This document shows positions 1,208 through 33,039 of a stretch of DNA of 64,000 nucleotides, piece by piece; position 1 is the stretch's first letter, and the number at the start of each line of letters is the position of its first letter. Source of the DNA: Rhizopus arrhizus (Eukaryota > Mucoromycota > Mucoromycetes > Mucorales > Rhizopodaceae); contig JAKZZE010000010.1 of assembly GCA_024220505.1 (NCBI GenBank), forward strand, positions 248,001 through 312,000. The letters are read 5' to 3'. The position numbers and the translations under genes were made by a program. A model generated the notes under the pieces. The model had not been told where the DNA came from. It ran no database searches and saw only the letters and a list, made by a program, of their open reading frames with translations.

Positions 1208-1222
1208 TTGCCCCCTTCCAGG
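1208..1222 (-). promoter_or_regulatory. G1 polypurine tract
   Basis: On the element strand CCTGGAAGGGGGCAA directly precedes the 3' LTR start TGTCATG. This is the expected position and composition for the plus-strand primer of a Gypsy element. Confidence 0.85.
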
Positions 1223-1630
1223 TTGTAACTATCTTTTCTGGAATTAATGTGGCAAGTGAAAATATGTTTGTTTAAGTGAATGTCGAAAATGAGGTTTGAG
1301 ATGTCAAGATGAGCTCTATTTGTTGTAATAAATAGGTGCTTGGTAGGGTTAAGTCATATAACGTATAGTGGCTCTTTATATAAACATATAAAGTATAGTG
1401 TTCAAGAATGGAACAAAGCATTTAGGCGATAATAAACCCTGAACAGGAATTTATTGCTAAAGTGATGTTTGTCTGTAAATGTGACTGCGTACAAATGTGC
1501 ATATTGAAAAATATTAAGGCATGAGTAAAAAATTCATTTTTTACTATCCTTGTAAATATTTTATAATTGCGTAATTTGCTGGTAACGTATATGTATAGTT
1601 AATGAAAGTTGGTGGAAGAAGGTCAATGTG

Positions 1631-6496: not shown

Positions 6497-6531
6497 TTTT
6501 AAACAAGAGTTCAGAATTCGTTAAAAAAAAA

Positions 6532-6770
6532 TGAAGTGTTTTAAGTATTCAAAAATAAGATAAAGAACAATTAACGAGACCGAACAATAGTTCTAAAGTC
6601 GAATACTTTTATTAAAGAAAGATTTCAAGGCTATTTATATTAGTTGAGCAAGACCTGAGATTAGATGACAAAAATAGTTACGACCGATATGATTTGACAT
6701 GTATAAGAAAAATTTTATAAACTGATGTTAATAATCAACTGTTGAGATGAAAGTGAAACTTGGCTGTTTA
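6532..6770 (-). repeat. G1 5' LTR, truncated by TE1-B
   Basis: It matches the first 239 bp (plus-strand view) of 867-1207 and ends at TA (6769-6770), where TE1-B starts. The missing part, beginning GGGCAGTG, does not reappear after 8402. Confidence 0.9.
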
Positions 6771-14871: not shown

Positions 14872-14873
14872 TA

Positions 14874-14916
14874 TGTAAGTTTATAAAAAAAAAAAATAAC
14901 AACCAAGGCTAATGTC

Positions 14917-14949
<33 letters not shown>

Positions 14950-16037
14950 TTAGGAATTCCTAATGGGACACATTCGGATGACGAACATGAGCCACATGAG
15001 CAAAGTTGTTCGTTTTAACACGATAAAACTATAAGAATATCAAACTTATATTGTTGCTTGTTGTTGAAAAGCCCTTTTTGATAAAGGAAGTTGGCAATGT
15101 TAACATCTCTAATGGCTAATGGCTAATGGCAAATTACACCCATGTGCAAACATAAAGTAAGTAATGAACTAATATAAGCTTAAAAACATATATTCTTTTA
15201 TATTATTTGTCATAAAAAAATAATAAAGCAATCTATTTACTTGAAAAACAAAAAAATTGTGCTTGTATCTATTAATTATAATTGCCTTCTAACAAGATGT
15301 TAACAAAGCTTCTTTTTTTTTTATTCTTTTTAAAATATACACGTATTCTTTTGTTATAATGTAAAAGCATTTGTATTTTTATAAAACATGTTTACTGTTA
15401 GGTTATTGTTTTCATTTGAATAAGGAACCTTTTATTGCTATGCTCTTTTTTTTTTTTTTTTTTTTCACTAGGTCTTTTTTTTTTAACTTTGTCTTTTTTT
15501 TTTACTTTTAATTTTTCAGCTTCTTTTTTTTTCCCAAACGCAACTATTTTGTTACATTCTGTTACACGTTTCTAATGAGCTAAGCTAAAAATCACAGACT
15601 GCCTTCCTAATATGTATTCTTCTGATCAAAATAATCGCAGAATGCTTTTGATATCCGCATTTTGCCCTCAAAAAGAAAAAAAAGAAAATATCGGTCTTTC
15701 AACGATAGAGGAGAACAGGCTTTCCAAAAAAAGACTATTTGAAAAAAAAAGACACTTTTTTAAAACATGAATAACTCTATGAATATTTGCCCTACAAAAA
15801 AATTAATAACATTGTTAAATTTCTTTATTTTTTTCGCATCTAAATCTTCTTTCAAAATTCAAAAAGGTGCAATACAGAGTATTTTAATTTTTTTCGTTTA
15901 CTCAAAGGTATTCAAATCGTTGATTTTTTGATGTTAGCAATGATTGTCAATGACTGAGAACGCTGAAAATCACCAATTATTTGCAGTGGGCGCCGGACCG
16001 GGGAGTTGCGTGAGGGCTTATGTCTTTTAGCTACGAC
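14874..16037. other. No gene found; AT-rich spacer and old tRNA-Val upstream flank
   Basis: Rich in T and A homopolymers (for example 14919-14946 and about 15447-15466). The last 60 bp are more GC-rich (GCGCCGGACCGGGG) and adjoin the broken tRNA-Val 5' end, so they are the original upstream flank of that tRNA. I see no credible ORF. Confidence 0.6.
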
Positions 16038-16062
16038 AAAGAAAAGTGGTTTCTTGGTGTAG
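16038..16062 (+). repeat. Left target-site duplication: tRNA-Val 5' end fragment
   Basis: 25 bp identical to 32954-32978. It contains 10 bp of upstream flank and the first 15 nt of tRNA-Val (GGTTTCTTGGTGTAG). The LINE 3' end starts at the next base. This is the orphan half of the target site. Confidence 0.9.
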
Positions 16063-16367
16063 ACAAAAGATTTTTATTTAAAATGATAGTGGGTTACTTA
16101 GCCGTGGCCCTATGGGGTAAAATGGCTCACCCAAGGTACAAAAAATATATAAATTAAAGGCAATTGTAGTGCGCATGAAGCGGTGTGTGAAATAAAAAAA
16201 CTAGTCACTGACTAGAAAAAGGTAGAAAATACAAAAAAGTAGTGGGTTTGCAAAAAGAAAATAAAATAACAAAACAAAAGAACAAAATAAAATAAAAGTT
16301 GTAACAAAGTATAGTTTGTTTGTTGGGTTGAACGCACGGGAGGGTTGAGAGAGAGGCAGAAGTAGAG

Positions 16368-16757
16368 TTATTCAGTCACGTCAAGGACTTGCGGCAACAG
16401 CAGAGAAGGTTTACCATTAGTATAATACCAATTGAGAAATGTTGAGCCTGAAGTGTCCAAAGCATCGCCAGTGAACGTCTCATCAGGATGGCAGATTTGA
16501 TCTATTTCCAGGAGTATTTTGCTGATTTCTGGCCACCACGTCGACCAACGAGAGACAACGTGAGTGTTAGCAGTGTTTTTCTTGGCTGGTTTACTGGGCA
16601 GCATATTCAAGACGTAATCCAGAGGATTAGGAGGCGTAAGAATAGCCACATCCAGACGAGAAGCGACAGACAAACAAGAGAGGAGATGGTTTCGGGACGC
16701 ATGAGGGTGTCTACAGCTACACGGCGCAGGACGGCCAGGCAACCAGGGACAACTAGG
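16368..16757 (-). pseudogene. C-terminal part of LINE ORF2, separated by the TIR element
   Basis: About 129 residues open to the stop at 16368. They begin PSCPWLPGRPAPCSCRHPHA and continue with SRNHLLSC. This is the C-x-C...H...C knuckle usual at the C terminus of LINE ORF2 proteins and thought to bind RNA. Codon phase matches the other ORF2 part: if the TIR element and one AGT duplication are removed, codons run through ...RVIGT-PSCPW... without shift. The 3' UTR is 16063-16367. Confidence 0.85.
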
Positions 16758-16760
16758 AGT

Positions 16761-16805
16761 TCAGGCCACGATGGATAAATCCTTGGATCTGGAGTTAAAT
16801 CGGAG
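16761..16805 (+). repeat. Left TIR of the ISXO2-like element
   Basis: Starts TCAGGCCACGATGGATAAAT. It pairs with the reverse complement of 28207-28251, with six mismatches in 45. Confidence 0.88.
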
Positions 16806-19156
16806 CTAGAATCGCAATCTAAGAACAAAAACATATACTTTAGGTCATTGTGCATCCATTGAAACTATTTTTGTATTCAAATTCCGACTTTTTGTTATCA
16901 GTATTTGCATTTGAAAATAGGCGGTATGAATAAAATTTTGGCGCTCTTGATATCCATGAGATCTTTATGGATTTTAATGAAATTTTGAACAATTGTGTAA
17001 CAATATGTTCCAAAAATAGGCATAAATTTTTGTTTTATTTATTACCATTTGTGGTAGAGAAATAGGTTAAAAACTAACGCAAAAAAATATAAATGTCGGA
17101 GTTTATAGCGGAAAGTTTGTACATCTATTTTTGATAACCGTATCGTTTGGTCTGCAATAGTTTATAAAAAACTTTCAAGATATGGTAGGTTTATAGGGCT
17201 CCTAAATTTGTAGCATATTCGCACTTTTGTTAACATTGCGGAGCGAATATTTGATTTCACACTCCGAGACTTTGGGAAACTACTTATCTTGTTATGCTTT
17301 GCGTGTGGTAAAATTTTTAACAGAATCTAAAAAATTGAGTTTTGGGCACTCCGGCACTGTAAGCATCTGGTTTCCTCAGCTTGGCCTTGTTTACTTTTGT
17401 GAAGGATTAATGCTCCCAAACCACTTTGTACGTTCTTTGGACTCTAATTGCACTAATTAATGGCTGTTATAGAGAACATCATTATGACTGCCAAAAGTTT
17501 TCCGACCTAATTAGGATTCGTAGCTTACATGCTATAACTAGGGCTTCTTATAAAGAGGCATCATCCATTGTTCGGGTATGCATGCCACATAAAAGCTTGT
17601 TCTCAAGTATCTTTTGAAAAATATGAAATAAATACTAATACTTTTAGCTAAATGCATCATTTTTATCATGCGAGAATCAGATTATTTCTTCGATTTTTAA
17701 AAGGTTTTTATTTTTTGGCTATGGCTCCAATATTAGTTGTAAAAAAGAAAAAAAAAAAAAAAACTAACTGTAATTATTGCATAATTGTTAAAATAATAAA
17801 AGAAAAGGTGGAAACAAAGATTGGGAAACAATTTGAACACTTTTGGATCTAATCTTTATTCAGCTTAAGTTAAAAGTAAAAATTACACTAACTGAAGGCA
17901 GATATTCATATCTTATTGAGTGAGGAATATTTCCATTATAAAAAGATAAAATCTAAACGAAATGATAAAAGTTAATGTCAATATAAGTTCATATTATTAT
18001 GCAAATTATATGACTTTGTAAGGTTTTCAATATTGATACTAATACAACACACATTTATTAATTTTAGGATTTATGATAATTTTTAATTTACTCTTAATAT
18101 TTAAATAATTATTATTTTTACATTAGTTGTTTCTCACCAATTTACTGTATTTATGAAAATGGTATGAATTATATTAAACAATATCTTTTTAGTATTTGTT
18201 TTCTTTTTTAATTTTGTAAAAAAAATAATATGAATTAGAATGTTTCTCAGTGGCTTAATATTCTCTATTGTAAGCGTTCCTTTAACTGGCAAGTACTTTA
18301 GCAAATGTCATTTATAATTATTGTTGTAAAAAGCTTTCGTCTGTTCGTTTGTACGCCTGTTATATATTATCTTTTACTCTGGGATTTTTTCACTGATTTA
18401 AATAACGTTATTCCAATTATGTAAAATATTAGAGAAATACCTGACATTTGATTGGATTTTGTTACTTTAGTTAATACTTCTTATCAAAGAACTCTCATTA
18501 ATACAAAGCATATTCTGAAAGAACATGTTTAATTGGAATTGATTATATGGCCTTATTTAAATAAACTTATGTTTTATTTTATTTTAATTATGATCTTATA
18601 TTAAGACTTGTATTTGTCAGTATTAACTGCAATCAGATTCTGTTCTAAAATGATAAGAGCATATATATTATTATATAACAATGCGATATTATTCGTGAAT
18701 ATACTTTAAAAATATTAATTCATACCGTTTTTAGCATATTTTGTTAATTACAAACTTATTTTTAATTTAATTTTAAAATGTTCTTATTAAATGTGTTATT
18801 CTCATTATAATTCGTACTCAAAAAAAGTTAAATTCTGTTATTCGATCCGATACATTTTTCATTGCTATTTAGTTTTTTATTGCATGTGTATTTATATTCG
18901 ATAATAGGTATAAAAAAGAAACTAAAATAGTCTGTAATATTTAGGCAAAGAAAAATTATAAGCAAGAGCATAATAGTGCTTTTGGTTTGCAAATAAAATT
19001 TAACTTATATTTATGCACTGATTACATAAAATAAAGGGTAGTCGCTTCATATAAGTTTAAGCAATTTACAGTAAAGTAACTCTAACACATCGAAAAGGTA
19101 TGTAACAGATATCTTTATAAAAAAATGTTCGTGTTTTCTAATATCTTTTACGTTTA
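16806..19156. other. AT-rich interior of the TIR element, no recognised gene
   Basis: Open frames of 77, 63 and 66 codons (17227-17460, 17426-17617, 17652-17852, plus strand) match nothing I recognise, and their AT-driven composition gives no clear coding signal. A second spliced gene cannot be excluded. The stretch 17860-19130 is very AT-rich and looks noncoding. Confidence 0.5.
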
Positions 19157-20870
19157 TTATGTTGCGTTTGAAGTACTTTGCTCTGTGATCATAGCATTGT
19201 ACAATGCTTCTGATGCTGCTTGAAAGTTATCTATATCTCGGTTTCGCACAACTTCCAGTAATCTACTTGTAGCTTGTTCGACCGAAAGGACACTATTGTT
19301 GTCAGAATTAGGTAAAGCACTGCTCTCGTCTTCTATCACAACTGCAACATCAGTTCTTCTATTAAGCCTACGGCGACGTAATGGAGGTGACTGTACTTCT
19401 GCTTGATAATCTGGATCATTATCAATATCATCCGTATCTGTGTCTTCACCAATATCGACTATTATGCAGAAATTATTATTATGTTAATTTAGACAAATAT
19501 AAGACTATCACATTTTTTTTATATTTACTGTCAATTTCGTGGTTGTTGTTCATTTCATCAGTTGGATCACCTTCCATCACCTCTTCACTTCCTTCTTCTT
19601 CTGTTATGAGTTGATAATTCTCAACTTCTACATCTCTGTTTCTTTGTCTTGGCATATCAGGAAACGATACCTCCCCTAGACCACGCACTAAAGCCCTCCA
19701 AATTTGGTTACGGTTTTCGTAACGCCACAAGTATTCCATTAGTCTATAAGGACACTCGAGCTTTGTACGATGCCTAGCTTGCATTTCTCTTTTGACATCA
19801 GCCCACAATCCTTCTATAATGTTTGTGTTAATCATCCCTTGAGTATTGTTTTGGTGAACTTGATCTTCCGTAGCAAACCCAAGGGAATGATTAACTACTT
19901 GATGCCTGTAAATATGTTGCTCACTATCCATCATTGCAACTTGAAGCGCTCCAGTGCGGGCATTGTACCGCTCCCTAGGGTGTAAGCCACTATAGGCACG
20001 CCAGCCATCCGTTCGGATTGTTGTACCTGGAACAACATACTTTCGAATGATTGGTATAAGGGTGCGTGCATTTCTGTTTGGAACAGTGCATAAAAACCTG
20101 CGGCCTGCTTTGAACTGAGGTACCAATCTTGTTTCAGTAACGCCGTTTGCTTGTGATACTGTCACAACCCTATTTGTACCTAGGGCAATAGCTTCGACCA
20201 TGCCCAAAACCCATACACCTTCTACTCGATGGCCTCTATGGTACTTTCTTTTACCAAATTTCGATTCGTCTATTTGGACATGATCTACACCTGGCCCACC
20301 TATATCACATAAATTAATAAAGATATAAAAGAAATATTTATAACTTACCTAACATAATTGGATTATGTCTTAACAAATCGCTTTCAAATACAACAATAAG
20401 ATCTCGGTATAGCTGGGATATTATCTTGTAGTCAATGGAAAGGTCTCTGTATATCGTTGAAAATCTTTCTTGGTTCATCGTAAGGCGAAATATAACCTTC
20501 AATGTGATACGGATGTCGCATCTCTTGCGGTAAAACATCGAACTTTTTGTAACAGATTGAGATACTTCTGTAGGATGCACAGCACGATTATAACAACGAA
20601 ATTGGTATTGGTTACGGGATGCTCTCCATGTTGGACCACGCATTATTTCGCTGCACTTAGGACATCTAACCTCTGGTTGAGTAGAAATAGCTCCAATACG
20701 TCTTAAAAAACTAAAAAAAAATTAGTAAACATATTTTTGTAAAAAAAAAAAGACACTTACTTCCAACAAGATTCGTAAGAAACTGTAATTGCTTCTCTTT
20801 CTAATTCACCGTTTGGTACGACTCTTGAGCTTGGTCCATTTGAAGTTAAATTATTGTTGTTTGTTGACAT
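19157..20870 (-). CDS. IS1595/ISXO2-like (Merlin-type) DDE transposase, four exons
   Basis: Probable autonomous transposase of the surrounding TIR element. Exons on the minus strand are 20870-20761, 20710-20349, 20299-19529 and 19458-19157. The introns are 50, 49 and 70 bp, all GTAAGT/GTAAAT...TAG. Phases agree across all three junctions and give 514 codons with no lesion. The N terminus has a partial zinc ribbon (CPKC near 53-56, then FRC at 76). The core has IDESKFGKRKYHRGHRVEG (Asp 168), TDGWRAYSGL (Asp 255) and NIIEGLWADVKRE (Glu 320), typical of the ISXO2-like transposase domain. The C-terminal tail is acidic, then has basic RRRRLNRR. Start: Met at 20870 with upstream AAG. The exon model rests on my reading of splice sites. 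Confidence 0.88.
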
Positions 20871-21159
20871 CTTGTATAATACTCTGCGTTCAGTTTGAAT
20901 AAAAATATTTAAACAATTCAATGTTTTACAAAGATGATAAAAATTAGTATTGAAAACAATACTACATTAAATACTATATTAAACTTACCTTCAGTTACAA
21001 AAAGAAAAAAGGAAAAAAAAAGGAAAAAAAGAAAACAAAAAAAACGAAAGAGAAAAGAAAAAAATTTTAAGGGATAACTTCTTTTCCTTTGTGGCTTACG
21101 TCGAATTAAAATTCCGTGAACAAAAATGTTGAAGGATCAAAATTTCCGATAAAAACAAT
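20871..21159. other. Upstream region of the transposase gene, no gene seen
   Basis: AT-rich, with a purine-rich tract at about 20998-21065 (runs of GAAAAA and GGAAAA). It presumably holds the transposase promoter; no clear TATA box can be assigned. Confidence 0.45.
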
Positions 21160-21235
21160 CATCCACATCCGGGTATCGAACCCAGGATCATCACTTTGGG
21201 AAGACCACACTTTTCCAACCAAGCTATTTTAACTA
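21160..21235 (-). pseudogene. Degenerate tRNA-like sequence, perhaps tRNA-Gly(UCC)-derived
   Basis: The minus strand has a near-consensus A box (TAGCTTGGTTGG, 21215-21226) and a good B box (GGTTCGATACC, 21172-21182) with a five-pair T stem. The middle resembles tRNA-Gly(UCC) (GGTCTTCC). The acceptor stem does not pair and the anticodon stem is imperfect, so it is probably a tRNA pseudogene. It could still recruit Pol III factors. G2 begins about 9 bp from its 5' end. Confidence 0.55.
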
Positions 21236-21243
21236 TCTGTCAG

Positions 21244-21701
21244 TGATATGTGGCTAAATTCGTCTCTTCGTCCTCCATTTAATCACGTGTTTTGCGGACC
21301 GGATGGTTGTTGTTCGGATCGGGCAGTATTTTCTTATTGTTTGGTGCTTTTATGGCTGTATTGGAAAATAGTGTGGAGTTACACAGATGGACTGTTTAGC
21401 ACAGACGCGAGAAATACTAGAGTTCCTGAAAGACTAATTATTTATGAAGATCCTATTGTGCCTAAAGGAATACAATATCAAAAACTCAGTTGATTTAGAA
21501 GAACGAGAAATAACGGAAAGTCAAAAGAGCTTTATTATAAATAGTGTTGTTGACACAATAATAAACGATATACAGTCTTCTTCCCATTTTTATATACTTA
21601 CTTTACGCTTTTAAAGTCTTACTGCCTAAAGAAGTTCCCATACTATTAATTGAAGGTTATAATATTCAAGGTAAACATAGTTGGGGAAAACACACATATC
21701 A
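21244..21701 (+). repeat. G2 5' LTR
   Basis: 458 bp, same as 27322-27779. It contains TTATATACTTACTTTACG-like TATA text near 21590. An 81-codon open frame inside (21248-21493) is the LTR copy of the integrase tail. Confidence 0.95.
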
Positions 21702-21703
21702 AG

Positions 21704-21721
21704 TGGTCCGGCCTACCAGAT
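21704..21721 (+). promoter_or_regulatory. G2 primer binding site
   Basis: TGGTCCGGCCTACCAGAT begins two bases after the LTR, as expected for a site complementary to a tRNA 3' end. I cannot name the tRNA with confidence. Confidence 0.75.
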
Positions 21722-21737
21722 CTAGTATATTAATTCG

Positions 21738-22727
21738 GTGATGTATATTCAAGGGTATATTAAAATGTCAAGCTTAAATCAAGATAGTCAAGCTAATTCC
21801 GGTGCGTTGATAGGTGAAAATCAACAGGGAAACAAGATGATGAGATACGTGAATGAACCTAAGAGCTTCACGGGTTATACTAAATATCCAGGTGGGGATA
21901 TTTGTACTGAAGCTTATACTTGGTTAAACAGGATGTCTCGTCTTAAAGCTACTGCAAAGTTATCAGATAAAGAAATTCTTTTCATTGTGGGTGATCACCT
22001 TGTTGAGAAAGCCGAAACCTGGTGGAACGTCGTTGGTTCCAAGTCTGAATCTTGGAAAGAGTTTTCTGAGCTGTTCAAGAAACAGTACATGGTGGACCAA
22101 GAAGACAAGTGGTGGCGCCAACTTCAAACTATGAAGCAGGGTCCTCAAGACAGTATCGATGATGTGGCTCTGAAAATGGAGGAACTCTTTGGTCTTTTGG
22201 GTTCGATGAGTGAAGCCTTTCAGGTCAGAACCTTTTTGGGTGCAATAAACCCTACTATTGCATTCGAAGTTGAAAAGGATGAAACTGCTACCACGTTTTC
22301 TGCTGCCAAAAAGAAAGCTAAGCAAATTGAGAGAAGTTTAGCAAAGTACGGTGCTAATGGTGTGATGCCCAATCGTGGTTTTAGTAATGTTACTAACGTG
22401 GAGTCTGACAATGTTGGTTCTCAGCATGGCTGGAATTCCTCTTCGTCTACTGTTTCTTCTTTGGCGGAAAGGCTGGAACAATTGCGAATCAACTTGGTGC
22501 AGCTAAGTAACGTTGTCATGAGTCAAGAGAGGGTTACTCCTCAGGTCGCTAACTCCAAGCCTGTTCGAAGAAGTTTGGTCTGTTTCTTCTGTGATGAAGA
22601 AGGTCACCGCAAGTTTGAATGCCCTAAGTTTTTAGAGAAACAGAATGGTAGGGCTATGAATCAAACGCCAGCTACGGGGTCTAATGCCATTCCTGTGAAC
22701 CAGGGAAAAGGTCTGGAGCGTCAGTAA
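21738..22727 (+). CDS. gag: G2 Gag
   Basis: Capsid-nucleocapsid protein of about 320 residues. The likely start is the Met at 21765 (MSSLNQDSQ); an upstream Met at 21738 is possible. The central part has a Gag capsid fold signature (YTWLNRMSRLKATAKLSDKE and WWRQLQTMKQGPQDSIDD). The C terminus has one zinc knuckle, CFFCDEEGHRKFEC (C-x2-C-x4-H-x4-C), for RNA packaging. It stops at 22725-22727. A slippery G GGA AAA at 22703-22709 shifts some ribosomes into pol. Confidence 0.92.
   Translation: MMYIQGYIKMSSLNQDSQANSGALIGENQQGNKMMRYVNEPKSFTGYTKYPGGDICTEAYTWLNRMSRLKATAKLSDKEILFIVGDHLVEKAETWWNVVGSKSESWKEFSELFKKQYMVDQEDKWWRQLQTMKQGPQDSIDDVALKMEELFGLLGSMSEAFQVRTFLGAINPTIAFEVEKDETATTFSAAKKKAKQIERSLAKYGANGVMPNRGFSNVTNVESDNVGSQHGWNSSSSTVSSLAERLEQLRINLVQLSNVVMSQERVTPQVANSKPVRRSLVCFFCDEEGHRKFECPKFLEKQNGRAMNQTPATGSNAIPVNQGKGLERQ
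22703..22709 (+). promoter_or_regulatory. G2 -1 ribosomal frameshift site (GGGAAAA)
   Basis: In the gag frame the heptamer reads caG GGA AAA, which fits X XXY YYZ. The pol frame is -1 to gag and opens after a TAA at 22682, so the frames overlap by only about 42 bases with this heptamer inside. pol has no ATG near its start. Confidence 0.75.
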
Positions 22728-25636
22728 AAGAGGTGACTGACGCTCATAAAAATAATCAAAATCCTCAAAATTTTGGTGACGTCAACTTGGTGGACACAGT
22801 CAGCCAAGATAGTGGTGATGGTTTTGCTGAGGTCTACGTGTCAAAAAGAAGAATGGATGCTCCTCCTTCGGTTTCTGCTTCGGATACTCATGTTGACAAG
22901 CGACCAGCAGCAGAGACTAATCCAGTGGGTATAGGCGGAAATCAGGTGTATTCAGGCTTTCAGCAAGCTACAACGTCAAGTCGACCTTTTGGTGCGGGTA
23001 TTCCTGCCTTGGGTAGTGGTGGAGTTCCTGTAAATACTTCGATGGATACGTTGCCTGGTCTTCAAGGTGGTCCTACAGTCAAGAGGGCAGTCAAAAAACG
23101 CGTACGTGGAAAAGCTCGCCGCTTACCTGTTAAAATAAAGAAAAAAGGAAATGTCTGGGAGGTGCTTGATGGCACAAATGCTGGTTTGTCTGTTGCAGGT
23201 TTAATTGCAATGGATCGTGGTGTGCAAAGAGATGTCATTGATGGAATTCGTTTCTTGCGAGAGAAGAAAGCATCGCTTAAGACGACGGAAAAAGTAGTTA
23301 CAAAGGGTCGTAGGTCTGAAGAAAATACTGGTGCGGCACCTATGGTGATCAATGTGGTGGACCAAGACTCTTATGACAGTGGTTCTAGTGTTGTTTCTGA
23401 CGATGTCTTTATTTCTGATGATGAATCTGACTGGCAGTCTACGTTTTCGCTTTCAGATGACTCCAATGATAGTATGAACCTTACTGAAGATTGGGATGAT
23501 GGTGTTTCTGTCTATCACTATCCTTATAGTCTAAATCAGATGAAGCAAGGTTCTCCTTTGAAGGGTGTTGTTACTATCAATGGCAAGTCTGTGGTAGCAA
23601 TCTTTGATACTGGTGCAAGCGTGAGCGTCATTGGAAAAGCCTTGGCGGTTTCTTTGGGTCTTAAGCCTAATGGGGATACTTTGGCGTTGACTGGTCTAGA
23701 GAACAAACAAGGTAATGACAGTCCAATTGTAAGTGATGTGCCTATCTGTATCGCTGGTAAAATACGTCCTGAGCATATGTGTATCCATGATTCTGGTAAT
23801 ACTGATCTGTGTCTGTTGGGAATTACGTGGTTCCAAGCCTATGGTATCGAGCTGGATTTAATTAATTCTATTGTTAAAATACCTACGACAACTGGGATGG
23901 TTAAATTGCAAGGTTACACGTCTCATATTAAAGATCGGTCGCTCTTGAATTCGAACGTTATGCTCCCTTCGGTGTTAGATGCGGGTGGGTCAAGTAAAGC
24001 AACGATTGGTTCTGATGATGATCGGCGAGTCTATATGGTGCAAACTAGTCAAAACCATGTGGATGCTTATGAAGATGAGTTGATTCCAGAAGGCGAAGTA
24101 TTAGAAGAAGAATTTAAGTATAATGCAAATAATATTACTATTGGTGTTTTACCTGAATTAGCTGATGTAGTAGAAAGGTATAAAGAATGTTTCTCTGAGG
24201 TCTCTGGTCTGGGTCGTGTTACTGGTTATATGATGGATCTCCCGCTGATAGATGGAGCAACTCCTATTAGAACGAAACCTTTTAGAATAAGTTGGCAAGA
24301 AGAAGAAGTTCTAGACCAATACTTACAAGAAATGCTGGATCTAAATATCATCAAGCCGTCTAATGGTCTTTGGGCAAGTCCTTGTTTCTTCATACCAAAG
24401 AAGGATGGGTCATTGCGTCTAGTGATTGATTACCGTAAGCTGAACAAGATGGTCAAGCAAGACGCGTACCCTCTTCCTCATATTGATGAATTGTTGGACT
24501 CGGTAGGTGGTGCTACTATATTCTCTACTCTGGATTGTACGTCAGGATATCATCAACTCCCGTTAAATGAAGAACATGCAGAAAGGACTGGGTTTGTTAC
24601 GAAGCGAGGTACCTTTTCCTTCAATGTGTTACCTTTCGGAATTACTACTGGCTGCAGTCAATATCAAAGAATGATGCACACTATTCTGTCGAAGTACGTG
24701 GGTGATTTTGTCCTGATCTTCTTGGATGATATTTTGGTGTATTCAAGATCTGTTGAAGAGCATCGGTACCATTTATCTCTGTTATTAGAAGCATGTGCAA
24801 AGGCCAATCTCAAGTTGAAGCGCAAGAAGTGTAAGTTTGGTGAAAGTCAAGTCGAGTACTTAGGACATGTCATTACTGCCAATGGGGTGCTGCCTAGTGA
24901 TCATAACATCAATAAGGTGAAGATGTTTGAGACTCCTTCTAGTGTGGATGATGTTCGCTCTTTTCTTGGTCTGACGGGGTACTATCGCAAGTATGTCCCT
25001 GGTTATGCTACGATGGCTGAACCTTTGACTCGTTTGTTAAAGAAGACGGTGCCTTTTAGTTGGGGTCAAGAACAGCAAATGGCTTTTGAACAGTTTATCA
25101 AAGCACTTACCGAAACGCCTATACTGTCTTATCCTGATCGTAAAAAGATCCAAGTGCTCTCTGTGGATGCTAGTTTGAAAGGTCTAGGTGCTATTTTGTC
25201 ACAAGTAGATGATGCTGAAACGATGGCTAATGAACGGGTGTTGTCATATGCTTCAAGAGGTCTGCGTGGAAGTGAAGTGAACTACGCGATTACGCATTTG
25301 GAGGCTCTGGCTGTTGTTTGGGGTGTGACTCATTACAAGCACTACTTGAAAGGGCGGCATTTTGTATTGATCACTGATCATTCGAGTCTGGTGTATATCT
25401 TCAAACCAAGTCGTATTACGCCTAAGTTGTCAAGATGGGCTGCTGCTTTATTGGACTATGATTATGAAGTTCGGTATCGTCCTGGTAAAAGTAATCCTGC
25501 TGATGCCTTGTCTAGAATCTGTAGTAAGGAGGATAGTGATCGGTCGGTGGATGAATATGAAAACAAATTTGCTGCTAATGTATCGAATAATAATGAGAAT
25601 ATGGTTCTTGCCGATGGTGTTACTCGTAGAAATTGA
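22709..25636 (+). CDS. pol: G2 protease-reverse transcriptase-RNase H
   Basis: Translated by -1 frameshift from gag; the first codons after the shift are AGG TCT GGA. A low-complexity, Lys/Arg-rich linker precedes the retropepsin (AIFDTGASVSVIG). RT follows with FFIPKKDGSLRLVIDYRKLNK, LDCTSGYHQLPL, LPFG and the catalytic FLDD (near 24722). RNase H has SVDASLKGLGAILSQ, YAITHLEALAVVWG and TDHSSL. It ends at TGA 25634-25636 with no integrase attached, unlike canonical Ty3/Gypsy pol. No lesion is seen in the domains. Confidence 0.92.
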   Translation, partial: RSGASVKEVTDAHKNNQNPQNFGDVNLVDTVSQDSGDGFAEVYVSKRRMDAPPSVSASDTHVDKRPAAETNPVGIGGNQVYSGFQQATTSSRPFGAGIPALGSGGVPVNTSMDTLPGLQGGPTVKRAVKKRVRGKARRLPVKIKKKGNVWEVLDGTNAGLSVAGLIAMDRGVQRDVIDGIRFLREKKASLKTTEKVVTKGRRSEENTGAAPMVINVVDQDSYDSGSSVVSDDVFISDDESDWQSTFSLSDDSNDSMNLTEDWDDGVSVYHYPYSLNQMKQGSPLKGVVTINGKSVVAIFDTGASVSVIGKALAVSLGLKPNGDTLALTGLENKQGNDSPIVSDVPICIAGKIRPEHMCIHDSGNTDLCLLGITWFQAYGIELDLINSIVKIPTTTGMVKLQGYTSHIKDRSLLNSNVMLPSVLDAGGSSKATIGSDDDRRVYMVQTSQNHVDAYEDELIPEGEVLEEEFKYNANNITIGVLPELADVVERYKECFSEVSGLGRVTGYMMDLPLIDGATPIRTKPFRISWQEEEVLDQYLQEMLDLNIIKPSNGLWASPCFFIPKKDGSLRLVIDYRKLNKMVKQDAYPLPHIDELLDSVGGATIFSTLDCTSGYHQLPLNEEHAERTGFVTKRGTFSFNVLPFGITTGCSQYQRMMHTILSKYVGDFVLIFLDDILVYSRSVEEHRYHLSLLLEACAKANLKLKRKKCKFGESQVEYLGHVITANGVLPSDHNINKVKMFETPSSVDDVRSFLGLTGYYRKYVPGYATMAEPLTRLLKKTVPFSWGQEQQMAFEQFIKALTETPILSYPDRKKIQVLSVDASLKGLGAILSQVDDAETMANERVLSYASRGLRGSEVNYAITHLEALAVVWGVTHYKHYLKGRHFVLITDHSSLVYIFKPSRITPKLSRWAAALLDYDYEVRYRPGKSNPADALSRICSKEDSDRSVDEYENKFAANVSNNNENMVLADGVTRRN

Positions 25637-25900
25637 TGGCTATAATAACGCGATTATGATTATTTTTGTAAAGGATCCTTTTTTATCTCTTTTATCTTTT
25701 TTCTTCATCCTTTTATCTTTTTTATCTCTTATTGTTCACTTTTGTATCTTAATATTTTTTGGAACTTTTACCTTTTTGAATCGGTCTAAACTTCACTTTA
25801 CTTCTTGGAAAAAGGGTGATAAACAATAAAGTTACTGTTGGTATAAAAGAAGAGTAATTGGGTCCTTTTAAAGTTCAAATTCTTTCTCTGTTTACAATAT
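25637..25900 (+). other. G2 spacer between RNase H and integrase
   Basis: About 265 bases, T-rich, with stops in all frames relevant to pol. The integrase frame downstream is the same as the pol frame. An intron (for example GTAGAA near 25627 to ...CTATTAG near 25949) could join them, but the branch and strength of these sites cannot be judged by eye. Confidence 0.45.
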
Positions 25901-27571
25901 TTGATCTTTAATCGTATGCTTCTGCGATTGGTATCGAATATAATGGCTATTAGTTTCGCTTGGTTTCTGACAATATATCATTATTTGGCTGATGGTTCAC
26001 TGCCAGAAGATTGTGATAAGAAAACGGCGCAACGTATAAGGTATCAAGCAAAGAAGTGGTGTCAATCTGATGAGGGATTCTTGTTGGAAAAAGGAACTGG
26101 AAGAAGATTACTTCATGAAGGCGACGCGCTAGAAGTGGTCAAAAGGATACATCAAGAAGGTCATTTTGGGATACTTAACACCATAGACAAGGTCAATAAG
26201 TACTATGTGCTGTCGGGGTGCAGAGAATTGGTTACTGCAGTAGTACACTCTTGTGAGACTTGTCAATTTCGTGCTCAAATCAAGGCGGTTAGGTCTAACC
26301 CTGGTGTGATCATGAAGACTCCTCTTCATCCTTTCTTTATGGTTGGTGTTGATGCGGTGGGACCTTTACAACCCACAGAAAAAGGAAATCGTTATATATT
26401 GACTGCGATCGATCATCTAACAAGATGGCCAATGGCGATGTGTGTCCCGGATATTGATGAAGAAACTACTGCAGAGTTTTTCTTTAGTGCTATTGTTAAA
26501 AATTTCGGTGTACCTCAATACATCTTGTCTGACAGAGGGTCTAATTTTATATCAACATATGTACATTATTTCCTCCGTCAAATTGGTTGCAAAAATATCA
26601 TGACTACAAGTTATAGACCGCAAGTTAATGGTATGTGTGAAAGGTTAAACCAATCCTTAGTTCAGATTATGTCTAAAATTGCGCGTGATAATGGTGACAT
26701 ATTACAATGGGACAAGTATTTAGACGCTGCTTTGATGGTTCTCAGGTCAATGGTCAATAGCTCTACTGGTTATAGCCCAGGGTATCTATTGTTTGGTTAT
26801 GAATTCAGAACTCCTGCTGTTTGGGTAGCACCTAAGGAAGATTTTGTGCTTGGAGAAGAGATGGAAGCTCTTAAAGATCGGGTGATCGAGATTCAAGACA
26901 AGATGGCAAAGGTCAGAAGAATAGCAAGGGAAAAGTCGGATGAAAACAAAATCAAGGCAAAGAAAAGATACGATAAACGGGTGATATATCGGAAAAGTTT
27001 TGAAGTTGGAGAGAAAGTCTTGTTGCGTGATGCTACACCTTCTACAAAATTATCGGACAAATGGTTGGGTCCATACACAGTGTCGCAAGTGAATAAGAAT
27101 GGAACGTACTTATTAGTTGGCAAGAATAGTCTCAGGTTAAAACATGCTGTGAATGGAGACCGTTTGAAATTATTTAACAATGATGTAAAACACATGGTTC
27201 CTGATGTGGTTACTACTGCTGCTGCGGAGCAATTTCGAAGTTGGTTAAATACAAAGAAGAATCCAGCGTTTGTAGTGGATAGGAAATTAAAAGAGGAAGA
27301 AGAGTCTAGCGGGGGAGTACGTGATATGTGGCTAAATTCGTCTCTTCGTCCTCCATTTAATCACGTGTTTTGCGGACCGGATGGTTGTTGTTCGGATCGG
27401 GCAGTATTTTCTTATTGTTTGGTGCTTTTATGGCTGTATTGGAAAATAGTGTGGAGTTACACAGATGGACTGTTTAGCACAGACGCGAGAAATACTAGAG
27501 TTCCTGAAAGACTAATTATTTATGAAGATCCTATTGTGCCTAAAGGAATACAATATCAAAAACTCAGTTGA
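25901..27571 (+). CDS. G2 integrase with an LTR-encoded tail
   Basis: Inserts element cDNA. The first true ATG is at 25916; the frame opens slightly upstream. An HHCC finger (HQEGHFG...CETCQFR) precedes the catalytic core VGVDAVGPL, LSDRGSNF and NGMCERLN (DDE), then a GPY/F-like region (LSDKWLGPYTVSQVNKNGTYLL). There is no chromodomain. The frame runs without a stop through the polypurine tract and 250 bases into the 3' LTR, adding about 83 residues with a hydrophobic stretch (VFSYCLVLLWLYWKIVW). The tail's role is unknown. Confidence 0.9.
   Translation: MIFNRMLLRLVSNIMAISFAWFLTIYHYLADGSLPEDCDKKTAQRIRYQAKKWCQSDEGFLLEKGTGRRLLHEGDALEVVKRIHQEGHFGILNTIDKVNKYYVLSGCRELVTAVVHSCETCQFRAQIKAVRSNPGVIMKTPLHPFFMVGVDAVGPLQPTEKGNRYILTAIDHLTRWPMAMCVPDIDEETTAEFFFSAIVKNFGVPQYILSDRGSNFISTYVHYFLRQIGCKNIMTTSYRPQVNGMCERLNQSLVQIMSKIARDNGDILQWDKYLDAALMVLRSMVNSSTGYSPGYLLFGYEFRTPAVWVAPKEDFVLGEEMEALKDRVIEIQDKMAKVRRIAREKSDENKIKAKKRYDKRVIYRKSFEVGEKVLLRDATPSTKLSDKWLGPYTVSQVNKNGTYLLVGKNSLRLKHAVNGDRLKLFNNDVKHMVPDVVTTAAAEQFRSWLNTKKNPAFVVDRKLKEEEESSGGVRDMWLNSSLRPPFNHVFCGPDGCCSDRAVFSYCLVLLWLYWKIVWSYTDGLFSTDARNTRVPERLIIYEDPIVPKGIQYQKLS
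27288..27317 (+). promoter_or_regulatory. G2 polypurine tract
   Basis: A purine-rich run (AAAGAGGAAGAAGAG, then GCGGGGGAG) ends a few bases before the 3' LTR at 27322. It lies within the integrase tail coding sequence. Confidence 0.7.
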
Positions 27572-27779
27572 TTTAGAAGAACGAGAAATAACGGAAAGTC
27601 AAAAGAGCTTTATTATAAATAGTGTTGTTGACACAATAATAAACGATATACAGTCTTCTTCCCATTTTTATATACTTACTTTACGCTTTTAAAGTCTTAC
27701 TGCCTAAAGAAGTTCCCATACTATTAATTGAAGGTTATAATATTCAAGGTAAACATAGTTGGGGAAAACACACATATCA
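27322..27779 (+). repeat. G2 3' LTR
   Basis: 458 bp, apparently identical to 21244-21701. It is followed by the TCAG duplication. Confidence 0.95.
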
Positions 27780-27945
27780 TCAGAACGAGAAAATAATATG
27801 ATTGTGTCCCACTTACAGTTAAATTAATTTATGCTCTTCATGGGTTGCAAGATGCTTTTTAACCGTAACTAAATACTAATATTGTTCTGTGTATCTCTTT
27901 CATTACTTTCAATGACTATTTTATGCCAAATTTAAAGAAAATTTC

Positions 27946-28143
27946 GTGTATACGTATTTTAAAAAAGCTAGCCGAAGTGATGCAGAGAAAATCAAAAGTT
28001 TTATGATTGAGTGCATTAATTACAATGTCTGGTACCTAATGGATAAGCTACGTGATAACAGGATTGGACTACATTTACGGAACATGGAAAAAGTGCCAAA
28101 TTCTGCGATTAGAGCAGCAATATGTCGGAATTTTAATATTTAA
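27946..28143 (+). other. Unrecognised 65-codon open frame near the right end of the TIR element
   Basis: The frame (YTYFKKASRSDAEKIKSFMI...) has ordinary-looking composition but I do not recognise it. It could be an exon of a lost gene or chance. The rest of 27784-28206 shows nothing else. Confidence 0.25.
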
Positions 28144-28206
28144 ACTGCGGCATCGTATTCTCCATACTCAAAAACCCTTGTTTCCATATTTGGACTGTAA
28201 ATATAT

Positions 28207-28251
28207 CTCCGATTGAACTGTATATCTAATGATTTATCCATCGTGGCCTGA
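28207..28251 (-). repeat. Right TIR of the ISXO2-like element
   Basis: The reverse complement begins TCAGGCCACGATGGATAAAT. It is followed by the AGT duplication at 28252-28254, then LINE ORF2. Confidence 0.88.
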
Positions 28252-31200
28252 AGTCCCAATCACCCGCAACCAGCCCATTTTCCACCGAAGGAGCCGACTT
28301 CGCTCATACTTGCTCATAGGGATGAACAAAATGGGGTCTACGCCAAGAACACCACGGCAGGCACACAACAGCACCGGAGGGCAGGAAGAAGCACGCATTA
28401 ATCGTAAGGAGCGAGTACGGTAGTCTAGGATCGATTGACGCAGCTGCTTTGACGGTGTGTAATAGGCAAGACGGTCTTCCACCGTAGTAGTTGCACCGTT
28501 ATACTGAGGATCTCGCCAGATAGGATTAGCACGTAAAAGGGCTGGCCAGCGGAACCGTTTGTACTGGGGGGCCGTTTCAGTAAAGGAACGAATGGTGTGC
28601 AGTAGCGTATCCTCTGGCAAGAAGTGAGTACGTAGGATGAACTTCAATACCAAAGTATGGGCTCGTTCATGCATGGCAGGGAGGGATGTCATGTGTCGAA
28701 ACACCGTGGTAGAGGCTGTACGATGTCCACCAAAAGCGAGGCGTAGACATTGGTCTTGAGCCTTGTCAAGCAGCTTCAGGTTCTTCATCGTGAACAGACA
28801 GAGACACAAACCATATTCCAGCTTGGGTCGGATAAATATCGTGTACAGGCGGCTAGCAGTAAGGCGAGAGAAGCTTGGAGCATGGAGACCCAGAGGCTGC
28901 AATGTATTACGCATGGCAGGCAAAGCAGAGGCAATGTTGCGTTTAAGCAGTTGGTCAGTAGCAATAGCGCCTTTGGAGTCGAAAGGAATACCCAAATATG
29001 GAAAAGAGTCAGCAATGGGTATTGGATCACCATACAAACGTAGAGGAGGGGCACCATAGATCGTAGGTGAGTTAACTACCACACACTTTGTTGGGTTCCA
29101 TCGATAACCAAGTTCCATAGAATGCTGAGCAGCTCGACGAAGAAGACGGGGCATTACGTCAGGTGCAGCGATAATTACCACATCATCGGCATAGAGCAGG
29201 CAATTGATCCATAACCCAGAGTATTCTCTACGTGGCATGGTACCAAAGACACGGGAGGAAATTGGTAGAGGGACAGCACGGAGGACAGCAGGAAGAGAAT
29301 TGATATAGATGGAATACAGGAAAGGCGATAGGATAGAGCCTTGAAGCACGCCAGTCTTGGGCCAAAAGGAACGAGAAGAATGACCGTTGATTAGTACCTG
29401 TATACTCACTTTGTCAAACAAGCTTTGAAGAAGACCAAGGAGGGGTTCAGAGATGTATGTTTCAAGTGCTCTCCAGATGATCGCACGGTCAACAGTATCG
29501 TAAGCAGATTTGATATCTAAGAACGCCAAAACAGGGGCTTCACCATAATGATCCTCTGCATGTTGTCGACACAGCTCATGAAGACAAAGAGCCTGGTCAA
29601 GAGTACTACGGCTTCGGCGAAATCCACCTTGAACAGTATCAAGAGGGGGTGCCGAGGATTCAAGTTCATCAAAGATGCAGAGTTCAAGCAGCTTGCGTAG
29701 AACCGAGGTCAGACTGATAGGGCGAAAGTTGCCTGGTTCTAGCGGGTTACCCTTCTTATAGATTGGGACAACCTGGGCAGTACACCAAGCAGCAGGAACA
29801 GTGGACCACTTCCAACAGAGACAAAACAAGAGAGTAAGTACAGGTACCAACTTTGGAGCAATTGGTAACAACATTTCTGTTCTTAGATCATCAACTCCAG
29901 GAGCTTTGCGACGGGACAGGCGTTTGACCAAAGTATCACGTACCGTAGATTCTGTGAAAGGACAGGTGATTAGGTCAATTGCATGAGGGCCAGAAGGAAT
30001 TGGAGGCGCTGGATAACGAGAAGCAGGGAGCGACGCACCAGAGAAAACTTGCTTGAGGTGATTAGCCATAGTATCAGCAGCAGCTTGGGGACCATTAGGA
30101 TGATTGAACGTTGGGGTAATCGCTCGATTACGCTTGACCCGACGAACAATGGATGCGGTCTCTTGCAATGGACCAGAGGAGAGCTTCTTACAGAATTGTC
30201 GCCAAGTTTCACGTCGACGACGCTTCATGTCACGATTGAAGTAGTGACAAGCGAGCTGGTATCTGTCCCATGCTTGACACTTCTCAATTCCCACAGCACG
30301 GTGCCATTCCTTACGGCAGTGCTCACGGTGGTCAAAGGCATCTTGCAGCAGTGGAGTCCAAAACCAAGAATTGTTAGACTGTTTAGGATTCTTGCGACCG
30401 ACTGAATCATCGAGAGAGGAATGAATGATACCAGTCAATTCAGCAGCTAACGCATCATGGTCAGGTTTTTGAAGATAGGATTGGCTATGTGGATCAAAGA
30501 AGGTTAGCAATCGTTCATGAAAGGAGAGAATGCGATCACTAAAGATAGACACATAGGTGCAATCTTCTTCAGTCAGGCGAGACAAATTCCATAGCTTACG
30601 AGGGTGAGTAGGCGGTGGTGGTGGTAGTTCTGGAAGTAGACAAGTCAATGACACAGGATGATGATCAGAGCCCATGTTTAGGTCTTCTCTTACAACCAGT
30701 GTAGGATCGACAAGTTCTTGGGTGCTGATGAACAAGTCAATGACACTCTTGAACTGAACACCAGACTGATGATGTACTCTTGACTGTGAGCTGTAGGTGG
30801 GGACCCCAAACGCCAGACGTGAATTCCAACAGGTGAGACCCGTGTCTTCAAGCCATTCCTGGAGCAATGTGCCTCTGGTGGTGGTGCGAGTGTCGCCTAG
30901 TAGTAGTTGGTGTCGAGCATTAATATCGCCACAGATAATAGTGTTCGACTGTGATGGGTGCGTTTGAGTAGGTAAGGAGCGTAGGATATCAAGTGCTTCA
31001 GTGTCAGACAGAGTGGAAGGAGGTAAATACACACAATGTATTAACAGAGAGGCAACTTGACAAGAAAGTACATAGGGAGAGGAAGACGGAAAGTGGGTCA
31101 CTGGGTAGGGACACTCAGGGTTGACAAGAAGTGTGATGCCCATTTTACCACGATATGAATCCTCAACCGGAAGGCCATAGGTGTGATATTGCTGCCAGTG

Positions 31201-31404
31201 AGTTGGATACCGCAGAGGTGGCAGCAGCCATGTCTCTGACATAAAAAGGAGCGACGAAGAAGAAAGTGAATCAGTGATAGCACTAATAGCGTGGCGAGCA
31301 CAACCATTAGCGTTCCATATGGTGATGTTGAGTTCTTGGTAAGGAGTGGACTGGGACATAGATGGTATAGGGTTAGTGATATATGTGTTACTGTCAAAAC
31401 TCAT
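28234..31404 (-). pseudogene. LINE ORF2: endonuclease-reverse transcriptase, C terminus replaced by TIR
   Basis: 1,056 codons from ATG 31404. The N-terminal APE-type endonuclease has IWNANGCARHAI near 15, SETW, ICGDINARH near 158 and SDHHPVSL near 248; it nicks the target DNA. The RT domain has PIYKKGNPLEPGNFRPISLTS, FLDIKSAYDTVDRA near 626, GVLQGSILSPFLYSIYIN near 690 and the catalytic YADD near 738. A C-terminal RSRLLRWKMGWL motif follows. The last five residues and stop (SGHDG) are read from the TIR element; the true C terminus is at 16368-16757. The start ATG overlaps the ORF1 stop as TAATG. EN and RT look intact; loss of the knuckle probably inactivates the element. Confidence 0.93.
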
Positions 31405-32872
31405 TAATAGTTATTGACAGATTCACCAACACCTGAAGGTTTGTCAGAGGAAGCTTGGGTGTCATCGGTAAAGGTGTTGATGACATCGGTCATATCATCA
31501 TCAGTGTGCTGGTTATCAACGTGCTCAACAGAACCCGAGTCAACAACCACAGCTTGATCGTACTGTGCCTTGGTGATCCACTCTTGCTGGTGGAAGAAGC
31601 GGGCTACAGCCAAACGAACAGGTAAACGAATATGCTTAAGAGCACGAGAGAGACGTTGTTGGTGGAGGTCGACGCATTTAGTCTTACGTTCCTCTTCAGG
31701 TAGAGAAGCGAAGGAAGGATCACGCAGACGAGCAGTATCAAGAGGATCGAATGACTCCAAAGGCTTAACACCAGCCTTATTAAAGTGATCCAGTAGTTCA
31801 GCAGCATAACTGTTGTGCACAAGAAGAGCAACAACGTGGTTATCTGGATAGTGAACATCTAGCACACGAGCATTATTGATTTTGAGCTTATTCAATTTAG
31901 CTCGAAGGCTAGAGTAAGCCTCACGAAAACGGCAAGGCAGGTATATGTACTGATACCCATGACCACCAGTAAGAGGAGCAAAGGTACGAGCGACAGCCTT
32001 CATCTGCCGAGGCGTGATACGACGTCGTCGAACAGGTTGGGACATCTTGGGTGGTGCAGGAGACGTGGCAGTGGCGGCACTAACGGCAGCATAGGACTTG
32101 TTAGCGGCAGGCACAACTGGAGCAGACTCTGGTGAGGACTAGCGGGAGACAGGTGTACCTTGACTAGTCGTGGGTGGTGTTGGTGTCGAAGGTGCAGAGG
32201 TGGGTTTGGAGTGAACGGCACGGTCAGCCTCCAAAGTCGCTATACGCTGTTGTGCGGTCTCAAGGGCAGCACGCAGGCGCAGGTTTTCTTCAAGCAGGTG
32301 CTCAAAATTGGCCAGTCTTTCATCATAGCGACGAAATTGTGCCTGGAAGATTGAAACCCAGTCGTGGGCAGGTACAGCGGGAGTACAGGTTGGTACCTGG
32401 GGAGAAGTAGGTAAAGGGGTGGTTTCCTTTACATTGTCTAATGCAACTTGTGATGTAGGAGGAGCAGTGGCTACACCAAAGTCGAAGGGTCCGGTCACGT
32501 TGACGGCGAAGTTGTGGGCAGGTGGTTGTTGTGACATTACGGAAGTAATAATGGCAGGAGCTGGACTGGTGCGAATGTCGATTGGCACAAGTGGTGGCGT
32601 ACGGACAGAGAACAGACGCTTGCTTGGAGTGAGTGGTGAGGGTGATTCAGGAGTGTTTACAGAGACGGATTGGTGAGTCTGTGTAGACGGATGGATGCTT
32701 CCTGATGTGGGTTGATCTACCTTTGCTAATGATTCCAAATCAAGATCTTGAGATGTCGAAATGGTGCTACGGATGTCAGAGATCTTAGTGCCTGAGAGTG
32801 TTGGCAGGTCTTGGGGTGCTTTGGGTGTGGTTGACTGTATCTTTACAGGTACGTCTTTACTGTGTATACTGT
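31404..32872 (-). pseudogene. LINE ORF1, RNA-binding protein with one amber codon
   Basis: The frame is open from about 32872 to the TAA at 31406-31404 except for one TAG at 32139-32141. No ATG occurs before 32537 (MSQQPPAHNF), so either that is the start or the 5' end is incomplete. The N-terminal half is Pro/Ser/Thr-rich, then a heptad-like coiled coil (EHLLEENLRLRAALETAQQR). The C-terminal half (from about 32090) is basic and then folded (YQYIYLPCRFREAYSSLRAK), as in ORF1p-type chaperones. The amber could be a mutation (CAG to TAG) or a readthrough site; a single copy cannot decide. Confidence 0.75.
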
Positions 32873-32953
32873 GCTAATACTCTTCTTTAAGAAAATCGCT
32901 TGATGGCAAAACTTTTATCCGGTGGCGGAGCCAAGTAAAAGTTTTGAAATACG
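32873..32953 (-). other. LINE 5' end
   Basis: On the element strand it starts CGTATTTCAAAACTTTTAC right after the 25-bp duplication and leads into ORF1. No separate gene is seen. Confidence 0.6.
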
Positions 32954-32978
32954 AAAGAAAAGTGGTTTCTTGGTGTAG
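32954..32978 (+). repeat. Right target-site duplication of the LINE
   Basis: 25 bp identical to 16038-16062. The last 15 bp are tRNA-Val positions 1-15. Confidence 0.9.
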
Positions 32979-33037
32979 TTGGTTATCACGCCTGTCTAAC
33001 ACACAGGCGGTCGCCAGTTCGAGTCTGGCAGAAATCA
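32964..33037 (+). tRNA. tRNA-Val(AAC)
   Basis: 74 nt fold into a full cloverleaf. The acceptor GGTTTCT pairs with AGAAATC (one G-U). The D arm has GTG/CAC. The anticodon stem CCTGT/ACAGG has loop CTAACAC, anticodon AAC. The variable loop is five nt, and the T stem GCCAG/CTGGC has loop TTCGAGT. Discriminator A, no encoded CCA, no intron. Eight T follow as a Pol III terminator. Its 5' flank is now LINE DNA beyond 10 bp; the internal promoter is intact, so it may still be expressed. Confidence 0.96.
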
Positions 33038-33039
33038 CG

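Follow-up and report, generated by a model that had tools for sequence, protein, structure and literature searches.

A LINE inside a tRNA-Val gene of Rhizopus arrhizus and evidence for a group of LINEs specific for tRNA genes

A 64,000-nucleotide stretch of the Rhizopus arrhizus genome (contig C2, positions 248001–312000, in a genome of 50.26 Mb; hereafter the window) contains a long interspersed nuclear element (LINE) that lies within a tRNA-Val gene, and we describe here this insertion together with a genome-wide survey of its relatives. Nucleotides (nt) 1–14 of tRNA-Val occupy positions 16048–16061 on the plus strand and form the target-site duplication at the LINE 3' end. The LINE is on the minus strand: its 3' part, comprising the end of the second open reading frame (ORF2) and the 3' untranslated region, is at 16063–16746, and the remainder, as far as the 5' end (5' ACTTTTCTTTCG..), is at 28266–32963. 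Directly at this 5' end is an intact, regenerated tRNA-Val(AAC) gene on the plus strand (32964–33038), whose sequence to the discriminator base is common to 9 other genomic loci. Between the remnant and the LINE, G16062 is ambiguous and could be either G15 of the tRNA or the first base of the complementary DNA (cDNA). The LINE spans 17 kb because a nested element (16747–28265, with the 8-bp target duplication GCAACCAG) splits it at 16746/28266; an uninterrupted 5374-bp copy on contig C39 matches the two parts with 98.8 and 99.4% identity.

The window ORF2 (28234–31404, minus strand, 1056 aa), which encodes an apurinic/apyrimidinic-type endonuclease (APE) and a reverse transcriptase (RT), is truncated C-terminally by the nested element, and the ORF1 region (31404–32738, minus strand) is interrupted by a stop; in the C39 copy both frames are open, with 377 aa for ORF1 and 1169 aa for ORF2. 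The domains found in the window ORF2 are Exo_endo_phos_2 and RVT_1, with no integrase domain, and the element has no long terminal repeats (LTRs), as befits an APE-type LINE. The C39 ORF2 carries the motifs WNxNG, SETW, GDxN, SDH and YADD, and four of these five endonuclease/RT motif patterns are present in ORF2 of 6/6 family representatives, SETW being limited to F1, the family of the window element. The closest protein to the window ORF2 is from Rhizopus arrhizus (100% identity over 73% of ORF2), and among solved structures the LINE RT matches L1 ORF2p best (1.2e-15), followed by R2 (6e-12). A Pfam scan of ORF1 gave no match above the cut-off, and a scan of viral contigs found no relatives. 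The ORF2 tree that we refer to below has 60 rows and depicts inner relations only, without named LINE clades.

A preliminary description of this locus had pointed to identical 25-bp strings at 16038–16062 and 32954–32978 that bracket a minus-strand LINE, the right-hand one running into an intact tRNA-Val(AAC). These observations hold, as the two strings do not differ, an ORF2 with endonuclease and RT domains lies between them, and the tRNA gene is present as described above. That description had also interpreted all 25 bp as a target duplication, of which the part made of tRNA nt 1–14 stands and the other 10 bp does not, since copies of the same LINE in tRNA-Gln genes identify these 10 bp as the LINE 5' end.

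The relevant copies came from a genome-wide search with the F1 3' end, which gave 6 matches. Five reach the terminal base; the sixth lacks the terminal 84 query bases, so its junction is unreadable. All five complete 3' ends follow tRNA nt 14 and are antisense to the tRNA (Val 2, Gln 3), with the Val remnant GGTTTCTTGGTGTA on contigs C2 and C38 and the Gln remnant GGTCCTATAGTGTA on C34, C39 and C40. An intact gene is present at the 5' end of the copies on C2 (Val), C34 (Gln) and C39 (Gln); on C40 the 5' end meets another repeat, and on C38 it was not located. It had been suggested beforehand that a collection of F1 3' ends would reveal targeting, and that other copies with unrelated flanks would speak against it; no such copies occur among the five complete ends. 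Genomic Gln genes read GTGTAATGG (GTGTAA) whereas the Gln copies read GTGTA followed by GACAAAAG, which places the join after A14, with the G on the LINE side.

Both ends are readable in two Gln copies, in which the LINE ends in AAAGAAAAGT beside the tRNA, the far flank is unrelated, and the duplication is 14 bp. As AAAGAAAAGT is lacking from the far flank, the letters at 32954–32963 are LINE 5'-end sequence. A 25-bp target duplication is thus rejected, the far side being without the 10 bp in 2/2 readable Gln copies, and the target-site duplication in the window, judged from sequence comparison, is 14 bp (16048–16061), or 15 bp with the ambiguous G16062. We also rejected AAAGAAAAGT as a native motif upstream of these tRNAs, because it is absent from 12/17 Val and Gln genes, a count that leaves out one gene (L034) with unreadable upstream sequence. 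Where AAAGAAAAGT does occur among the 17, it is in 3 cases the end of an F1 LINE and in 2 it follows accaaaagcg, letters shared with the 5' end next to the tRNA-Gly(TCC) and tRNA-Cys(GCA) genes described below; related LINEs have CGAAAGAAA, or a closely similar string, at their 5' end.

The left-hand AAAGAAAAGT (16038–16047, plus strand) recurs as the LINE end at 32954–32963 and in the Gln copies, and its left neighbour is the end of an LTR-like repeat (..gctacgaca); similar strings also precede other tRNA remnants with an LTR-like far side. It is therefore a putative relic, the 5' end of an earlier LINE at the same tRNA gene, and the simplest reading is that the window tRNA-Val was hit by that earlier LINE and that the present one represents a later hit. 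After the earlier hit, an LTR-like element would have replaced most of that LINE in the left flank (..gctacgaca then AAGAAAAGT). Separately, a repeat beginning TGACAGTTGCTAAT adjoins the LINE 5' end in one F1 copy and one copy of the C family introduced below (L010, L136).

An ORF2 search gave 44 scored matches of 1145 candidates, the window ORF2 included, which fall into groups of about 99–100, 66–67, 65 and 62–63% identity. The labels F1 and B to H were coined in this analysis, G and H being known by their ends only. Families found by ORF2 similarity were surveyed with their own LINE 3'-end patterns, which contain no tRNA letters. A first pattern search gave 94 matches (control 37), of which 17 were already known, 38 were read and 39 were omitted for a form unlike that of any family; of the 38, 10 were dropped because by eye no LINE-like sequence preceded the match. 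A second search gave 17 matches, of which 16 were read and one with 3 mismatches was omitted, and one F end (L067) was taken from a separate search.

In this survey 45/62 junctions abut exactly nt 1–14 of a tRNA seen intact in the genome (F1 5/5, B 13/16, C 18/18, D 8/10, E 1/3, F 0/10), so that in F1, B, C and D most complete copies are at one sequence-defined site, as is expected of a target-specific LINE in the strict sense. The B family uses Lys (3), Phe (3), Met (4), Thr-AGT (2) and Thr-CGT (1) genes, the C family Thr-TGT only, and the D family Ser-CGA (4) and Ser-AGA (4). The D-arm motifs at which these A14 families are found are GCTCA for B, GCACA for C, CCGA for D and GTGTA for F1. Isoacceptors seen both as an nt 14 remnant and as an intact gene number 12, Gly and Cys included. 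LINE-like 3' ends (..CTTTCGTC) also adjoin nt 14 of tRNA-Val at L049 (C12:976190–976229) and a remnant reading TAGTTTA at L018 (C34:1168344–1168366).

A looser search gave 137 matches (control 101), about 100 of them listed, and from these 36 ends with a different 3' form (G and H) were picked by hand and read, including two (L179, L185) that resemble chance matches. An A-box pattern is in register at 32/36 of these further LINE-like ends, and at one more with one mismatch. Two of the 36 remnants match intact tRNA-Gly(TCC) and tRNA-Cys(GCA) genes found at the expected 5' side, the position of the former having come from an RF00005 tRNA list that scored 63 of 2878 candidates. Over all junctions the A-box pattern, which was chosen post hoc when the junctions had already been seen, is in register at 70/98, compared with 1/1176 in registers shifted by 1–12. 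The Ser remnants of the D family miss this pattern despite being exact tRNA starts.

Further insight comes from 19 copies whose 5' end adjoins a tRNA and that could be aligned at both ends, paired by position and orientation, with the interior not fully read in all of them. In 16/17 of the F1, B, C and D copies the cut is after nt 14 of their own adjacent tRNA, the exception being a tRNA-Gly case, and the earlier proposal of insertion inside a tRNA gene with regeneration is thereby upheld in other copies; as pairs were chosen for the presence of a tRNA, 16/17 is no rate for all copies. Among the 16, 12 have a 14–15 bp duplication, which together with the exact 3' junction is what target-primed reverse transcription would give, and the remaining 4 have apparent duplications of 24, 24, 34 and 39 bp with LINE 5'-end letters on the far side. 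One of those with 24 bp is a C copy, as in the window, and the apparent 34 bp (B on C12) and 39 bp (D on C12) arise because the neighbour is another LINE.

Of the 62 remnants, 20 have on their far side, no more than 30 nt away, the 5' end of another LINE. On contig C4, an intact tRNA-Thr(TGT) is followed by 5 C units about 5.4 kb apart with 14-nt remnants between the units, and D on C12 and B on C12 form similar arrays. The 34-nt flanks are distinct in 5/5 F1, 16/16 B, 14/18 C and 8/10 D junctions, and in 27/36 of the hand-picked sample. Identical junctions are present inside the D array (L061, L084, L085).

The tRNA-sense strand is joined to the LINE after nt 14 (A14, in the A box and D arm), with the LINE antisense to the tRNA. 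The 3' ends are exact and without poly(A), and AATAAA is 11–16 nt from the final base in the seven measured forms of the 3' end (11 nt in the window copy); this combination fits target-primed reverse transcription from a fixed RNA position. We propose that the LINE endonuclease would nick the sense strand after A14, that reverse transcription would be primed by the nicked 3' end and begin at the final LINE RNA base, with exclusion of the poly(A) tail, and that the second strand would be cut near tRNA nt 1. Antisense tRNA sequence present in the LINE RNA by read-through would pair with the nicked strand, and may help to place the start. As the whole tRNA gene is kept at the other end of the LINE, nt 1–14 are duplicated and the gene is rebuilt; because of the antisense orientation, the 3' end of the LINE adjoins the short 14-nt remnant, and its 5' end adjoins the entire gene, internal promoter boxes included. 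Upstream, the rebuilt tRNA gene now borders on the LINE 5' end, and it is open to further hits, which accounts for LINE arrays arranged head to tail and separated by 14-nt tRNA remnants.

It is very probable that the window LINE is one dead copy within an APE-endonuclease, apparently L1-like group of LINEs specific for tRNA genes. Several observations weigh against such a simple description. The 17/62 junctions that are not exact comprise 3 B, 2 D, 2 E and 10 F cases, and in E (1/3 at nt 14) and F (none) most complete copies are not at this site. Two of the three E junctions are outside recognised tRNAs, and the F family shows that A14 is not universal in the LINE group: the F cut follows YCTT and, in the 2 copies read at both ends, falls at nt 6 (Asn) or nt 8 (Val). 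Of the B exceptions, one (the copy on C29, L051 and L119) has a 12-bp duplication and sits outside the A box, at -1 of a tRNA-Gly(GCC) gene, and one (L108) is in no recognised tRNA; in the other non-exact B junction, 5 nt are repeated where the Met remnant meets the LINE. Among 30 5'-flanking stretches read later, ARAGORN finds a tRNA in 15 and none in the other 15, of which 3 run into a partial tRNA interrupted by another LINE-like 3' end and 1 into another repeat, the others being truncated, lost or beyond the part read; in 6 additional 5' stretches there is a tRNA in 2, one of them chosen from the tRNA list. The 36 G and H ends, recognised by their 3' form, are candidate LINE ends. Lastly, the identical 34-nt flanks in C, D and the hand-picked sample imply that copies are not all independent, and some array units may be DNA duplications, added to repeated insertion.

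Some of these exceptions have features of their own. One of the non-exact D remnants recurs at the beginning of 3 further tRNA-Ser-like loci and the other D site (L062) is tRNA-like by eye only; a tRNA-like stretch at L145 (C7:19400–20150; GTCCAGATTGGTTAGGGCG..) resembles the latter. The F loci are L066–L069, L095, L097, L098, L100, L101 and L104. F and E are very close in the ORF2 tree and have the common 3' end CTTTTACC, and F perhaps represents a recent shift of target position.

That an untargeted LINE entered a tRNA gene once by chance, or that the window is misassembled, has a negligible probability. Chance is excluded by the 45/62 junctions at one tRNA position and the 1/1176 of the shifted-register control, and local misassembly is, on the assembled sequence, very unlikely because five contigs have the same junction and each of them a different flank. 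Spread of the repeats through unequal crossing over or through recombination of DNA between tRNA loci, in place of many targeted insertions, would account for the identical junctions within the D array and among some C and hand-picked copies, but most 34-nt flanks differ, as listed above, and spacer nucleotides vary between C units; we regard it as highly improbable as the general explanation. Similarly improbable is a model in which the LINE inserts just upstream of a tRNA and the 14-nt fragment is an RNA tail carried from the previous site. The LINE 5' end is indeed at or a few bases from tRNA nt 1 in most paired copies, and the C family has a single isoacceptor, as a carried tail would give. 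However, in F1 a Val remnant is beside Val and Gln remnants are beside Gln, with near-identical 3' ends, and 8/9 paired B copies match the adjacent gene, over five tRNA species (Lys, Phe, Met and two Thr isoacceptors).

RNA polymerase III (Pol III) factors (TFIIIC/TFIIIB) could, as has been proposed for Dictyostelium TRE5-A, bring the LINE machinery to the gene, where the endonuclease would nick the nearest acceptable site. Such tethering, which concerns how the site is found and is compatible with the site itself, is possible though we lean against it. It would accommodate the B copy at -1 of tRNA-Gly, whose gene is without the GCTCA motif and which suggests that the neighbourhood of the tRNA gene counts too, as well as the F cuts at nt 6 and 8, which in the 2 copies with both ends read are still in tRNA genes; TRE5-A needs the B box (PMC5391098). 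The restriction of the A14 families to few D-arm motifs, at a base-exact position, argues however for direct reading of the DNA sequence or for RNA pairing as well. A further suggestion, and one that we consider rather doubtful, is self-guided homing, in which transcripts of an inserted LINE would continue past its end (AATAAA being only 11–16 nt before it) into the adjacent remnant, and the resulting RNA with antisense tRNA nt 14–1 would anneal to the nicked tRNA gene and fix the start of reverse transcription, each insertion making the next guide. In this case the rebuilt tRNA would provide both a target and a neighbouring promoter region for the LINE, leading to stratified arrays.

Other mobile elements are associated with tRNA genes. 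The zebrafish LINE Dewa belongs to the Tx1 group, which has an APE. It is target-specific for a tRNA-Leu spacer, with no fixed coding position (PMC3706591). LINEs near NeSL are found in tRNA genes, namely NeSL-1_TV (tRNA-Pro), LIN15_SM (tRNA-Arg) and LIN25_SM (tRNA-Glu) (Kojima & Jurka 2015, PMC4640811), and these are likewise non-LTR retrotransposons specific for tRNA genes. They are relatives of NeSL, a clade with a restriction-like endonuclease, and are stated to use one tRNA each. The Rhizopus LINEs have an APE, extend as related families across several tRNA species and leave the gene rebuilt; the NeSL/R2 type has a C-terminal restriction-like endonuclease and no APE, and in the Rhizopus elements an APE-type domain is present, a restriction-like endonuclease having been sought by Pfam only. 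Dada DNA transposons also reside inside tRNA genes, several lineages at nt 8–13 in the A box (PMC3706591, PMC8869645), but they have a DDE transposase and 6–7 bp duplications with no reverse transcription, in contrast to the RT/APE and 14 bp of the Rhizopus LINE, and their duplications would be too short to rebuild the tRNA gene. TRE5-A of Dictyostelium is a LINE that likewise uses tRNA genes as a safe haven, but at about 47 bp upstream and with the tRNA uncut (PMC5391098); the Rhizopus junction is not at a fixed distance from the gene but inside it, after nt 14.

Within the host group, Grem-LINE1 of Mucor is likewise an L1-like Mucoromycotina LINE with ORF1 and ORF2 (PMC7377519), and by host group it is likely kin of the Rhizopus LINEs, but it is described from pericentric regions and the main text of that paper never mentions tRNA. 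In R. oryzae, tRNA-associated Ty3-type elements, 239 tRNA genes and LINEs amounting to 3.78% of the assembly were reported (Ma et al. 2009, PMC2699053); these Ty3-type elements share the host group and the tRNA association but are LTR elements, and the available text does not mention LINE insertion in tRNA genes. LINEs specific for tRNA genes are already published; for an APE-type group at tRNA nt 14 with regeneration of the gene we found no report in open PMC papers, Repbase and most subscription papers being outside the search.

A LINE insertion into a gene usually destroys that gene. The Rhizopus families use one near-invariant A-box base across many isoacceptors and set the duplication in such a way that the tRNA gene is restored, which makes the gene a non-destructive, reusable safe haven. 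Related endonucleases with different D-arm motifs form a natural series for the evolution of LINE target choice, layered LINE arrays may record the order of insertion, and the system may offer a basis for RNA-templated, site-specific insertion at tRNA genes.

The nested element that splits the window LINE contains a DDE_Tnp_IS1595 transposase ORF (19479–20207, minus strand) and is of the IS1595 type, presumably Merlin-like. Within it is a Ty3-type LTR retrotransposon (21243–27620, plus strand; gag, RT-RNase H and integrase) whose 300-nt repeats at 21243 and 27321 are identical. Repeats that are 86–93% alike occur just upstream of tRNA genes or remnants at about 14870–16040 in the window and at L002, L004, L005, L023, L029, L033 and L037. 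By eye, many tRNA upstream stretches end in ..CA about 9–12 bp before nt 1, a pattern reminiscent of LTR ends at the start site of Pol III, and such LTR-like ends fit the Ty3-tRNA association of R. oryzae (PMC2699053). At positions 1–7447 of the window, nested identical repeat pairs (1–300/7148–7447 and 863–1105/6528–6770) flank a Ty3-type gag-pol.

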